Positions 22,916 to 56,605 of a stretch of DNA of 64,000 nt are shown here, piece by piece. The notes under the pieces were generated by a model. That model was given only the letters and a program-made list of their open reading frames with translations, did no database searches and was not told the origin of the DNA. The first letter of the stretch is position 1. Every line of letters begins with the position of its first letter. The stretch comes from Chloroflexota bacterium (GTDB lineage: Bacteria > Chloroflexota > UBA11872 > VXNJ01): contig VXNJ01000001.1 in NCBI GenBank assembly GCA_009840625.1, forward strand, positions 720,183-784,182, in the 5' to 3' direction. The translations under genes and the position numbers were made by a program.

Positions 22916-23458
22916 ATGAGCACGAAAGAACTTCGCACCAACGATGGCATCAGCCCTCGCGAGGTTCTGTTGATCGACGATCAGAACGAGAAGCTGGGCG
23001 TCATGCCCACCGTCAACGCGCTCGCGTTGGCGCGCCAGAAGGGGCTTGATCTGGTCGAAGTGGCACCCAACGCCGTCCCGCCGGTGGCCAAGTTGCTCGA
23101 TTACGGCAAGTACCGCTACCGGCAGGAGCGCAAGGACCGGAACAGCCGCAAGAACCAGCGATCCGGTGACGTAAAGGAGGTTCGCTTCCGGCCGGTCACC
23201 TCCGATCAAGACATCGACACCAAGCTGAAATTGATGTCCAAGTTCCTGGCCAACGGATCAAAGGTCAAGGCCACCGTGCGCATGCGCGGCCGCGAACGCG
23301 TCTATCCCGAACTGGCGGCTGAACTCCTCAACAAGGTGGTCACTCGGCTCGACGGCATCGGCCACGTGGAGAACCCGATCTCGTCCGAGAGCAACGGGTC
23401 GTTCGCGGTGATCCTGGTGCCCGGTCCCGACCGCGGCTCAGTAGCGCGGAGGCGCTAG
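22916..23458 (+). CDS. infC: Translation initiation factor IF-3
   Basis: A 180-residue IF-3. The N-domain ELRTNDGISPREVLLIDDQN and GVMPTVNALALARQKGLDLV is followed by the linker PPVAKLLDYGKYRYRQERK and the C-domain with KEVRFRPVTSDQDIDTKLKL and NGSKVKATVRMRGRE. IF-3 binds the 30S subunit and checks the start codon. The ATG at 22916 is preferred over an in-frame TTG at 22880 because the family starts at this point; AGGAG lies about 12 bases upstream. The usual partners rpmI and rplT are not downstream, which is uncommon. Confidence 0.95.
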   Translation: MSTKELRTNDGISPREVLLIDDQNEKLGVMPTVNALALARQKGLDLVEVAPNAVPPVAKLLDYGKYRYRQERKDRNSRKNQRSGDVKEVRFRPVTSDQDIDTKLKLMSKFLANGSKVKATVRMRGRERVYPELAAELLNKVVTRLDGIGHVENPISSESNGSFAVILVPGPDRGSVARRR

Positions 23459-34220: not shown

Positions 34221-34973
34221 ATGTCAGGACACTCCAAATGGTCGACGATCAAGCGCAAAAAGGGCGCCAATGACGCCAAGCGCGGCCAGATTTTCTCCAA
34301 GCTGGCGCGCGAGATCATGGTCGCCGCGCGCAGCGGCGGCGAGGTGATCGAAAACAACAACCGCCTGGCGATGGTGGTGCAGCGGGCCAGGGCCGTGAAC
34401 ATGCCCAACGCCAACATAGAGCGAGCGATCGCACGCGGTGCCGGAGGGGGCGACGCGGCCAACATGGAGGAGATTACGTACGCCGGTTACGCCTCCGGCG
34501 GCATCGCCCTGTTGATCGACGTGATCACCGACAACCGCAACCGCTCCGTGGCCCAAATCCGCAATACGCTGGAGGGCGCCGGCGGCCGGATGGCCGACAC
34601 CGCGTCAGTGGCGTGGCTGTTTGAAAACCAGGGGCAGATTCTGGTCGAGGCGGCCGGCCGGGACTTCGACGATGTCTTCGAGGCGGCGGTCGAGGCCGGC
34701 GCCGATGACGTTGAAGCGGCCGATGGCCAAATATCGATCCTGACCGGTCCCTCCGATCTGGATTCGGTGCGGCGTTCGCTGGTCGCGGGCGGACTCGAAG
34801 TCAAGCAGTCCGAACTGATCCGGGTCGCCACCAATCCGGTCGCGGCCTCGGACCGAGATTCCACCGCCCTGCTAAAGCTGATCGATGCCCTGGAAGAACT
34901 TGACGACGTGCGCCAGGTCGAATCAAACCTCGAGCTCTCCGACGAGCTGGTAGCTGATTTCGCCGCCGGCTGA
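34221..34973 (+). CDS. yebC: YebC/PmpR family protein
   Basis: A 250-residue YebC with the hallmark start MSGHSKWSTIKRKKGANDAK, then GKxFxKxxREI-like RGQIFSKLAREIMVAAR, and ITYAGYASGGIALLIDVITD. Long described as a transcription regulator, the family is now linked to translation of proline-rich stretches by the ribosome. The ATG at 34221 gives the standard N-terminus. It heads the yebC-ruvC-ruvA-ruvB series, an arrangement widely conserved in bacteria. Confidence 0.96.
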   Translation: MSGHSKWSTIKRKKGANDAKRGQIFSKLAREIMVAARSGGEVIENNNRLAMVVQRARAVNMPNANIERAIARGAGGGDAANMEEITYAGYASGGIALLIDVITDNRNRSVAQIRNTLEGAGGRMADTASVAWLFENQGQILVEAAGRDFDDVFEAAVEAGADDVEAADGQISILTGPSDLDSVRRSLVAGGLEVKQSELIRVATNPVAASDRDSTALLKLIDALEELDDVRQVESNLELSDELVADFAAG

Positions 34974-34977
34974 TGAC

Positions 34978-35472
34978 CTGACCCTGGGCATCGATCCGGG
35001 GACCGCCAACCTCGGCTGGGCGCTCGTCAGCGGCGACGCGCAGCCGAACCTAGTGGAGTGGGGAGTGATCCATTCACCACGGCGCAGCAGCCTGGGCGAA
35101 CGACTCGAAGCGATCGATAAGGGTCTGCGCCAGATCCTCGCCAGCCACCCGGTGACCGATCTGGCGATCGAACGGCAGGTGTTCGTCAAGAACGTGACCA
35201 ATGCCGCGTCGGTCTTCTGCGCTTGCGGGGTGATCATGCTGGCCGCCCACCAGAACGGGTTGCGGGTTGCCGAATACACGCCCACCCAGATCAAAGCGGC
35301 GGTGACCGGTTCGGGCAACGCCGGGAAGCGAGACGTTCAGGACTGGCTGACCAGGATCCTTGAGTGCAAGACTCCGATAACGCCCGATCACGCCGCCGAC
35401 GCGGCAGCGGCCGCTATCTGCCACATCCATAACCGCGACATTGAGCGCGGGCTCGGCCGCCGAATAGCGTGA
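34978..35472 (+). CDS. ruvC: Holliday junction resolvase RuvC, non-standard start
   Basis: The RuvC frame begins in the sequence with LTLGIDPGTANLGWALV; counted from CTG 34978 as Met the catalytic residues are D6, E65 (LAIERQVF), H138 and D141 (PDHAADAAAAA), the Thermus-like set. No ATG, GTG or TTG lies in frame before the first aspartate. The first conventional start, GTG 35053, would remove D6 and kill the enzyme. An ATG at 34973 overlaps the yebC stop in a typical TGATG coupling but is out of frame by one base. So either CTG is used, or one base was lost by mutation or assembly error. RuvC cuts Holliday junctions with RuvAB. Confidence 0.85.
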   Translation: MTLGIDPGTANLGWALVSGDAQPNLVEWGVIHSPRRSSLGERLEAIDKGLRQILASHPVTDLAIERQVFVKNVTNAASVFCACGVIMLAAHQNGLRVAEYTPTQIKAAVTGSGNAGKRDVQDWLTRILECKTPITPDHAADAAAAAICHIHNRDIERGLGRRIA

Positions 35473-36056
35473 TCGCCCGCATCCGCGGCACGATCTGCGC
35501 CGCCGACCCGGAACGGGCGCTGGTCGAGTTGCAACCCGAAGGCATCGGCGTCGTCCTGCGCGTTTCGGTCAGCCAGAGTCTGCTGAACCGGGTCCAGGTC
35601 GACGACTTCGTCGACTTTCCGACCCACCTGCATGCCGGCGACTCCGGCCCGGAGCTTTTCGGGTTTGACGACAGCGCCGAGCTAAAAGTGTTCGCCCTGT
35701 TGCTGACCGTGCCGCGGATCGGGCCCAAACTGGCCCAGCGGATCGTCTCCGAACTTTCGCCGCGACGGATCGCGGTCGCAGTCAACGGCGAGGATGAGAA
35801 GACCCTCCGGTCGGTAAGCGGTGTCGGCGCCCGGGCCGCTTCGCGCATAGTCGTCGACCTAAAAGGCAAGCTCTCGGAGGCCGAGTTTGGTGCCCTGCAA
35901 CCGGGCGGGACGACCGACGACACCGAGGAGGCGCTGGCGGTTCTGGAGGGTCTTGGATATCCGCGCGCGGTGGCGGTCGACGCTCTGGCGGCAGGCGCCC
36001 GGCCCGGCATGTCCGTCGAACAGCAGATAAGCGCCGCGCTTGGAACCCTGGCCTAG
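35469..36056 (+). CDS. ruvA: Holliday junction branch migration protein RuvA
   Basis: A 195-residue RuvA: OB fold (MIARIRGTICAADPERALV), two helix-hairpin-helix motifs (LLTVPRIGPKLAQRIV, LRSVSGVGARAASRIVVDLK) and the C-terminal domain III that contacts RuvB (EEALAVLEGLGYPRAVA). GTG start overlapping the ruvC TGA by 4 bp. Length and domain order are normal. Confidence 0.95.
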   Translation: MIARIRGTICAADPERALVELQPEGIGVVLRVSVSQSLLNRVQVDDFVDFPTHLHAGDSGPELFGFDDSAELKVFALLLTVPRIGPKLAQRIVSELSPRRIAVAVNGEDEKTLRSVSGVGARAASRIVVDLKGKLSEAEFGALQPGGTTDDTEEALAVLEGLGYPRAVAVDALAAGARPGMSVEQQISAALGTLA

Positions 36057-36194: not shown

Positions 36195-37247
36195 ATGGCC
36201 GAATCGATCATGGCGCCGGAACAGAGCACGCCCGACAAGCAGTTCGAACAGGCGCTGCGGCCGCGTTCGCTGGCCGACGACGAATTCATCGGCCAGTCGC
36301 GCGTAAAGACGCGCCTCAAGATCCTCATCGAAGCAGCGCTGGGACGGGGTGAGCCGACCGACCACGTGCTGCTGGCCGGTCCACCCGGACTTGGCAAGAC
36401 TTCGCTGGCGCACATCATCGCCTCCGAAACCGGATCCAGCATCCGGATCAGCTCGGGGCCGGCCCGGGGGCGGCCCGGCGATCTGGCGGCGCTGCTGAAC
36501 AGCCTGCGCGCCGGCGACGTCTTGTTCATCGACGAGATTCACCGCCTCAGCAAGGTGGTCGAGGAGATCCTCTACCCGGCCATGGAGGACCGCCAACTCG
36601 ACCTGGTGACCGGACGCGGTTCAGGCGCTGCCCAGCGGACCTACCGGATCGCGATCGAGCCGTTCACCCTCGTGGGAGCAACCACCCGGCTTGGGTTGTT
36701 GTCGGCGCCGTTGCGCGACCGCTTCGGGGAAATCTACCGATTGGACTACTATTCGGACCCGGAATGCGCCGCGATCATCAATCGGTCGGCGGGCCTACTC
36801 GAGGTCCAGATCCGGCCCGAGGCCGCCGAAATGATCGCCACCCGCGCACGCGGGACGGCGCGAGTCTGCAACCGGCTGCTGCGTCGCGTCCGCGACTACT
36901 GCCAGGTCAAAGGCGACGGATCGATCACGACAGAGCTGGCCGACGATGCCCTGGAGATGCTGGACATAGACCGCCAAGGGCTCGACGACATGGACCGCCG
37001 GATCCTGGCCACGATCGTGCGCAAGTACGACGGCGGACCGGTCGGGATCAACACGATCGCGGCTTCGCTTTCGGAGGACCCTGCCACCATCGAGGACTAC
37101 CACGAGCCCTATCTGTTGCAGATCGGTTACCTTGCCCGCACGCCGCGCGGGCGGCAAGCGACCCGCCGGGCGTTCGAACACCTGGGCCTGACGGCCCCCA
37201 AGCGGGTTGATGACCCCGGCCAGCTCGCATTCGGGATCGACCCCTAG
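36195..37247 (+). CDS. ruvB: Holliday junction branch migration helicase RuvB
   Basis: A 350-residue AAA+ motor: Walker [17 protein letters not shown], Walker [13 protein letters not shown], sensor 1 [19 protein letters not shown], and the C-terminal winged helix ([20 protein letters not shown], then [20 protein letters not shown]). It drives branch migration with RuvA. A 138-bp gap separates it from ruvA, so it may have its own promoter. Confidence 0.97.
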
Positions 37248-54956: not shown

Positions 54957-55198
54957 ATTAACTCTCCGCCCCGGGGCGCGAAGATGGCGCGGCGAAGGCG
55001 CTGCGCTTGCTGGCGGCGGGTCGGCGGGTGGGCAATTGCCCCGGTCGCATTGGCCTGACTGGTGGCCTTCGATACGGCTGCTGGCGGCCCGTCGCCGGGC
55101 CGGTTTCCAGTCTATGGCCCGGGCCCTCGCGGGGGCAATTCCGGCCTGCGCGGCTAGAATCGCGGCGCCTCGGAAAACCCTGAGCGGAGACCCCCAAA

Positions 55199-56605
55199 CT
55201 GGCCTTTGATTTCATCGTGATCGGCGGCGGGTCAGCCGGTTATCACGCCGCCAGCACCGCCTCCTCGGCTGGACTGCGGGTGGGGTTGATCGAGTCCGCC
55301 GAGCGCTTCGGCGGACTGTGCATCCTGCGAGGATGCATGCCGACCAAAACCCTGCTGCGCTCGGCCGAAATCGCCCAATTGGTGCGGGAATCCGACCAAC
55401 TCGGGATACGCAGTTCCAGTCCGAGAGTCGATTGGCCGGCGGTCCGGCAGCGCAAGGACGAGCTGGTCGAGGAATTTGCCAGCTACCGCCAGGTTTCGGC
55501 CGAAAAGCTGGCCAACGTCGAAATAATCCGCGGCCGCGCCGAATTCCTTGGTCCAGACTCAATCGAGGTCGGCGGACAGGTGCTGAACGCGCCCAAATTT
55601 GCCGTCACCACCGGTTCGGAAATCGCCATACCGCCGCTGCCGGGACTTGAAGATGTCGGTTACATCGATTCCGACGAGGCCCAGACGTTGGACCGCCTGC
55701 CCGAATCACTGCTGGTCATCGGCGGTGGCGCGGTAGCGCTCGAATTTGCCCAGCTGTTCCTGCGGCTGGGCGTCGCGGTAACCGTCGTCCAGCGCTCGGC
55801 CCACGTGCTTTCAGGAATGGACTCGGCAATAGGAATCGCCCTGGCCGGATACCTTGAGCGCGAGGGCATGACGGTCGTCACCGAGACCGACATCCTGGGG
55901 TTTGAACGCGCGCCCGACGGCCGCAAACAGGTCAGGGTCAACACCCCGTCCGGAGAACGCACATTCGCGGCCCAGGAGATCCTGGTCGCGCTGGGCAGAC
56001 GCCCGGCCACCCGCGGGCTCGGATTGGACCGCGCCGGGGTAGACACCGATCGCGGCTGGATCCTGGTCAATACCCGGATGCAGACTTCAAACCCCAACAT
56101 CTACGCCGCCGGCGATTGCATCGGGCCCGAGGTCGGGCCACTGCAGGTGGTGCACACGGCGGTCCAGCAGGGCCAGATCATCGGCAACAACGTGGCCGAG
56201 AGAAAGCCCCAGGAATTTGATCTGCGGGTGGTCCCGCAGGCGGTCTTTACCGATCCGTCGGTCGGCGTAGTCGGACTTTCCGAAGTCGAAGCCCGGGACC
56301 GGCACTCCTCGGTGATAGTGGCCCAGGAGACTTTCGAGGATCAGGGCAAAGCCCTGACGATGGGCCAGAACAAGGGCCTGGTGAAGATGGTCGCAGACGG
56401 GGTCACCGGGGAGCTTCTGGGGGTTCACGTCCTGGGACCCGAAGCCGCCGACCTGATCCACGAAGCGGTCGTGGCGATGCACTATCGGGCCACAGTGGAC
56501 GATTTCGCCCGCATCCCGCACCTGCATCCGACCCTGGCCGAAATCATGGTGGACCCGGCCGAAGAACTGGCCGAAATGCTGGCGATGCCAGCGCCCGCGC
56601 GGTAG
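55199..56605 (+). CDS. Dihydrolipoamide dehydrogenase-like flavoprotein
   Basis: A 468-residue disulfide oxidoreductase. FAD site FIVIGGGSAGYHAA, redox pair in GGLCILRGCMPTKTLL (CxxxxC), NAD site SLLVIGGGAVALEFAQLFL, second FAD motif NIYAAGDCIG, and the C-terminal HLHPTLAEIM (His-Glu base). The first residues of the FAD fold lie before the first GTG (55217), in codons from CTG 55199 (CTG GCC TTT GAT TTC). GGAGA sits nine bases before that CTG, so a CTG start is likely. Members include lipoamide and mercuric reductases; no 2-oxoacid dehydrogenase genes are near. Confidence 0.88.
   Translation: MAFDFIVIGGGSAGYHAASTASSAGLRVGLIESAERFGGLCILRGCMPTKTLLRSAEIAQLVRESDQLGIRSSSPRVDWPAVRQRKDELVEEFASYRQVSAEKLANVEIIRGRAEFLGPDSIEVGGQVLNAPKFAVTTGSEIAIPPLPGLEDVGYIDSDEAQTLDRLPESLLVIGGGAVALEFAQLFLRLGVAVTVVQRSAHVLSGMDSAIGIALAGYLEREGMTVVTETDILGFERAPDGRKQVRVNTPSGERTFAAQEILVALGRRPATRGLGLDRAGVDTDRGWILVNTRMQTSNPNIYAAGDCIGPEVGPLQVVHTAVQQGQIIGNNVAERKPQEFDLRVVPQAVFTDPSVGVVGLSEVEARDRHSSVIVAQETFEDQGKALTMGQNKGLVKMVADGVTGELLGVHVLGPEAADLIHEAVVAMHYRATVDDFARIPHLHPTLAEIMVDPAEELAEMLAMPAPAR

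Follow-up and report, generated by a model that had tools for sequence, protein, structure and literature searches.

The window analysed here, a stretch of 64,000 nucleotides (C1:720183-784182), belongs to a genome that is presumably a metagenome-assembled one of Chloroflexota, since the nearest named records by RuvC come from uncultured Chloroflexota. It carries a gene of the yebC/pmpR family followed on the same strand by ruvC, ruvA and ruvB (Table 1). The open ruvC frame runs from 34954, directly after a TAG at 34951-34953, to the TGA at 35470-35472, and no ATG, GTG or TTG occurs in it from 34954 up to the conserved GIDPG motif, which begins with GGC 34987-34989. The codons of this frame 5' of the motif are CTG ATT TCG CCG CCG GCT GAT GAC CTG ACC CTG, and the near-cognate ones among them are CTG 34954, ATT 34957, CTG 34978 and CTG 34984. 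This codon reading bears out the original prediction that ruvC lacks a usual start before its first catalytic aspartate; the additional claim that only CTG codons are available in frame holds for the three CTG codons and has to be widened to include the ATT. An ATG sharing one base with the yebC stop (TGATG) and lying one base out of the ruvC frame had also been described and is indeed found at 34973-34975, and the sequence confirms that one added base after it would give M-T-L-T-L-G-I-D-P-G in frame. Counted from the G of GIDPG, CTG 34978 lies at -3, GAC at -4 and the out-of-frame ATG at -5, and no Shine-Dalgarno sequence was seen before CTG 34978. The mechanical open reading frame list begins ruvC at GTG 35053, 3' of the catalytic Asp, so that the first standard start drops this residue, as had been anticipated.

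Table 1. Features of the ruvC locus and genes supported as having a conserved N-terminus before their first standard start.
Feature	Position	Strand	Basis or remark
yebC/pmpR-family gene	34221..34973	+	NF001030, 297.4 bits (cut-off 243); stop TGA 34971-34973; 5' of ruvC
ruvC from the proposed CTG start (M-TLGIDPG...)	34978..35472	+	PF02075; alignment with nine relatives of the order
CTG, proposed start codon, 4 bases past the yebC stop	34978..34980	+	putative, from homology and other genes of the genome
Out-of-frame ATG ACC TGA; TGA overlaps CTG 34978 as CTGA	34973..34981	+	sequence
Further in-frame candidates CTG 34954 and ATT 34957	34954..34959	+	sequence
Third in-frame CTG, adjoining the 5' side of GIDPG	34984..34986	+	sequence
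GTG, first standard start in the ruvC frame; first catalytic Asp lost	35053..35055	+	open reading frame list
ruvA; GTG start overlaps the ruvC stop (GTGA)	35469..36056	+	TIGR00084, 128.6 bits (cut-off 85)
ruvB	36195..37247	+	NF000868, 462.2 bits (cut-off 282)
FAD disulfide reductase	55199..56605 (frame 55184-56605)	+	CTG 55199, GGAG upstream
panC			TIGR00018 reaches upstream of first standard start
thrC			TIGR00260 reaches upstream of first standard start
murJ			TIGR01695 reaches upstream of first standard start
yggS			TIGR00044; both in-frame and out-of-frame start candidates
Amidohydro_2 protein			HxH motif lost if read from first standard start
Alpha/beta hydrolase			Shine-Dalgarno AGGAG before ATT
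Zinc-finger membrane protein			supported by family model or homolog
SpoIID-like protein			only out-of-frame start candidates
SBD_N kinase	C9:95358-96659		out-of-frame ATG 5 bases before conserved WLVVADD, geometry as in ruvC
Esterase (twelfth supported gene)	C1:137219-138094		PF20434 from residue 42, first standard start at 59; outside the set of 11 compared in the text

With 120.2 bits (cut-off 22.2) against PF02075, the product of the ruvC frame is this family's sole match in the genome; two NCBIfam equivalog models also match it, below their cut-offs (140.9 against 163 and 80.4 against 100.65). D6, E65, H138 and D141, which we take to be the four catalytic acidic/His residues of RuvC, are invariant in the 10 sequences of an alignment with nine relatives of the order, and D6, the D of GIDPG, lies 5' of the first standard start. 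The 25 codons preceding GTG 35053 align with the RuvC of the relatives and encode the invariant G, D, P and G, and their coding signal is positive (4.9). The family match together with the conserved catalytic residues indicates that these N-terminal codons belong to the protein. The gene is thus like known RuvC from yebC-ruvC-ruvA-ruvB clusters in its family match, its D/E/H/D residues and its neighbours, and differs from them in having no standard start and in scoring under the equivalog cut-offs.

Among 23 other genomes of the order, a RuvC match was obtained in 22, and all 22 have an ATG or GTG just 5' of the conserved (L/V)TLG(I/V)DPG, where the window has GAC CTG. The start is at -4 in 16 of them, and the other six have an ATG at -7, to which five add a GTG at -3. 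A standard start at this junction is thus the rule in the relatives. The mended form described in the original prediction fits their positions less well, since the Met restored by one extra base would stand at -5, compared with -4 in the 16 and -3 or -7 in the rest. In five of the 133 ruvC loci (108 distinct) of a wider tblastn survey, the 12 codons ahead of GIDPG contain no standard start; four of these have one farther upstream, and the window ruvC is the only one of the 108 distinct loci without any upstream in-frame standard start. The ruvC of a Treponema MAG likewise lacks a standard start over this distance, its nearest being a TTG 30 codons upstream.

All these data make it probable that ribosomes reinitiating after yebC begin ruvC at CTG 34978; that CTG is used at all, which of the CTG codons it is and that it is coupled to yebC are all inferred from sequence. 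Ribosomes finishing yebC would restart within a few bases of its stop without a Shine-Dalgarno sequence, and the predicted Holliday-junction resolvase gene would be intact and working, with a product beginning fMet-Thr-Leu-Gly-Ile-Asp-Pro-Gly. The out-of-frame ATG 34973 could be a relic of a former standard start or, alternatively, a stepping stone of two codons (ATG ACC TGA), with a stop that overlaps the CTG. Counted in favour of the CTG start were the conserved frame, the standard start in relatives and the fact that further genes of this genome also lack a standard start; in view of these, ruvC looks less like a broken gene than like one instance of a habit that annotation under-records.

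These other genes come from a scan of 1.2 Mb (contig C1 and parts of C10 and C9) of the 2.27 Mb genome, which is in 20 contigs. A codon model was used to look for genes whose in-frame coding signal extends upstream of the first standard start, and genes with a score of at least 3 were flagged, a procedure that detects about a quarter of genes with a hidden first start (0.253 in this genome). It flagged 22 of 879 genes, which were sorted by eye after the scan using family models and BLAST into 12 supported cases, three uncertain ones (a TadE-like gene, folC and a glycosidase-like gene) and seven with ordinary starts. Hence 12 of the 879 genes have a conserved N-terminus before the first standard start, shown by a family model or a homolog reaching upstream. 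One of them is a second gene of the window, the FAD disulfide reductase, in which TIGR02053 and PF07992 begin two residues past CTG 55199, so that no ATG, GTG or TTG precedes the conserved N-terminus with its FAD motif. In the relatives, the same scan flagged 2/325 genes (G002), 2/142 (G001) and 3/313 (G007); genome G023 was left out of the counts because its coding model seems to have learned wrong frames (seven implausible hits). The excess of 22/879 over the 7/780 of the three relatives is only suggestive (Fisher test, 0.014; 0.09 against E. coli). By judgement, the supported cases of the relatives are nuoG (G001) and pdxA (G007), with one more in G007 likely. At the point where pdxA of G007 (C11:314735-315784) should begin there is an ATC with an AAGGAG, and its conserved N-terminus is not preceded by any standard start.

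infC and pcnB of E. coli start at ATT, and the window ruvC would be like them in that a conserved gene begins at a codon differing by one base from ATG, GTG or TTG. In a control scan of 400 kb of E. coli K-12 (284 genes), two genes were flagged, infC and one false call, and pcnB was missed. Furthermore, among 215 gene pairs in which the relative's gene has a standard start, a pairwise check yielded seven genes of this genome without one up to ten codons into the alignment, three of which, including ruvC, looked real on inspection. In the reverse direction the check yielded 5/215, one being infC of G002 with a Shine-Dalgarno sequence and ATA. An AttH-like gene, whose own CTG aligns to the TTG of a relative, was dropped, as it has an ordinary start downstream.

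The surroundings of the start were tabulated for 11 of the 12 supported genes. Seven of them (panC, thrC, murJ, the Amidohydro_2 protein, the alpha/beta hydrolase, the zinc-finger protein and the FAD reductase) combine an in-frame CTG or ATA/ATC/ATT with the absence of any out-of-frame ATG, GTG or TTG within 36 bases, leaving no standard start nearby that an indel could restore. ruvC does have such a start, its ATG at -5, and like yggS it has both in-frame near-cognate and out-of-frame standard candidates. In panC and thrC the CTG overlaps the stop of the preceding gene as CTGA. Within 36 bases, the SBD_N kinase and the SpoIID-like gene offer an out-of-frame start but neither CTG nor ATA/ATC/ATT in frame, which suggests that frame slips near starts may exist in this genome.

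In this regard, the alternative that deserves most weight, although we consider it unlikely, is a one-base assembly or consensus error just past ATG 34973, the real ruvC start being an ordinary ATG that overlaps the yebC stop. The placing of that ATG in TGATG, one base out of frame, is what such an error would leave, and the same geometry, an ATG at -5, recurs in the SBD_N kinase, a gene without any CTG or ATA/ATC/ATT in frame close by. We compared proteins of the relatives with contig C1 of this genome and found no frameshift-like split among 167 queries, while the same test gave 2/158 in G001 and 0/196 in G002. Of 240 aligned genes that each had one randomly chosen base deleted, the test detected 127, with low sensitivity near gene starts (1/28 in the first tenth of the alignment). 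Over the 240,753 aligned bases, this bounds the error rate at about one per 42 kb (3/(0.53 x 240,753)), and the roughly 0.2 cases that the bound allows for about 900 genes and 10 bases each are exceeded by the four genes that have an out-of-frame start close to the expected one. With 0/167 splits at this sensitivity, the assembly is not rich in indels; a single indel at the ruvC start is possible. Of the options left by the original prediction (a deletion, a CTG start or an assembly error), the CTG start is thus favoured by the genes with in-frame CTG or ATA/ATC/ATT and no out-of-frame start nearby and by the lack of internal frameshifts in the 167 comparisons; ruvC itself may nonetheless carry a one-base error or a real deletion.

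It is improbable that translation begins instead at ATT 34957, inside the end of yebC, to give M-S-P-P-A-D-D-L-T-L-G-I-D-P-G. The frame is open there, ATT is known as a rare start from infC of E. coli, which our scan flagged, and another gene of the same genome has a Shine-Dalgarno sequence and ATT; however, no such sequence precedes ATT 34957, and the added residues are absent from all relatives of the same family. A start at GTG 35053, which would yield an N-terminally cut and inactive RuvC, has in its favour that it is the first standard start in the frame, but it is very improbable given the alignment and coding signal of the 25 preceding codons, the intact ruvA and ruvB and the lack of a second RuvC match in the genome. 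Recoding, with initiation at ATG 34973 and a -1 shift to the CTG at the stop that follows two codons later and one base ahead of which the CTG begins, is hardly credible, since there is no slippery heptamer, the relatives have ordinary starts and, by reasoning rather than computation, re-pairing of the tRNA on GAC would be poor.

Returning to the CTG start, several reports count against it. Neither initiator tRNA tested uses CTG efficiently (PMC11497404), CTG was not enriched in a mycobacterial selection (PMC4633059) and only four switches to CUG were found among 68,906 reconstructed starts (PMC5622118). The missing Shine-Dalgarno sequence, the lack of a CTGA excess, the usual G-C pairs of the initiator tRNA (see below) and the two genes with only out-of-frame starts (SBD_N kinase and SpoIID) also count against it. 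Coupling has been shown to drop strongly with distance in E. coli and Haloferax (PMC10666635). Salmonella proteoforms with CUG and AUU starts have been reported (PMC11005335), and a frame-shifted lambda cI was rescued in E. coli by the non-natural start codon ACA (PMC6397469). ruvC could resemble this last case in a single-base loss just past the ATG with function kept through a nearby in-frame codon; it differs from it in that lambda cI was on a laboratory plasmid and started at ACA, whereas the codon here would be CTG. Compared with the bacterial genes known to use near-cognate starts, the start of the window ruvC is deduced from sequence alone, has no Shine-Dalgarno sequence and belongs to a genome with several such genes. 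Our search of the literature on CTG or non-canonical start codons in Chloroflexi found no relevant report.

A conserved gene with a near-cognate start is a known kind of thing, and the wider lead is the other start-less genes. Start lists restricted to ATG, GTG and TTG give a RuvC without its first catalytic Asp, and panC, thrC, murJ, yggS and others would be cut in the same way. If these starts are real, conserved genes of uncultured bacteria would use CTG and ATA/ATC/ATT as starts more often than their annotation shows, and the genes listed here would provide a ready set of junctions to test start selection.

Lastly, we considered whether this lineage, through loosened start selection, tolerates near-cognate starts (CTG first, also ATT, ATA and ATC) in at least about 1% of its genes, housekeeping genes among them, and above its relatives, which we regard as rather doubtful. 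The infC gene of the window (22916-23458) starts at ATG, and that of two family relatives, G001 and G002, read outside the scan, has ATA at the matching place, preceded by AAGGAGGT in G002; an ATG here against the rare ATA in those relatives is in keeping with such tolerance. The CTGA overlap was rejected as a general signature of CTG starts, with 14/263 in this genome against 23/420 controls, a class that includes ATAA and ATAG and is thereby somewhat impure, ATA being a possible start as well. A loosened initiator tRNA was likewise rejected, as the stretch CTCGTCGGGCTCATAACCC has the usual three G-C pairs intact; it was found in this genome and in 16 others of the 24 searched, the remaining seven having no exact match to the pattern. 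Base 1 of the initiator tRNA, located on contig C17, is T, which makes a U1-A72 pairing possible, and this position varies among the relatives.
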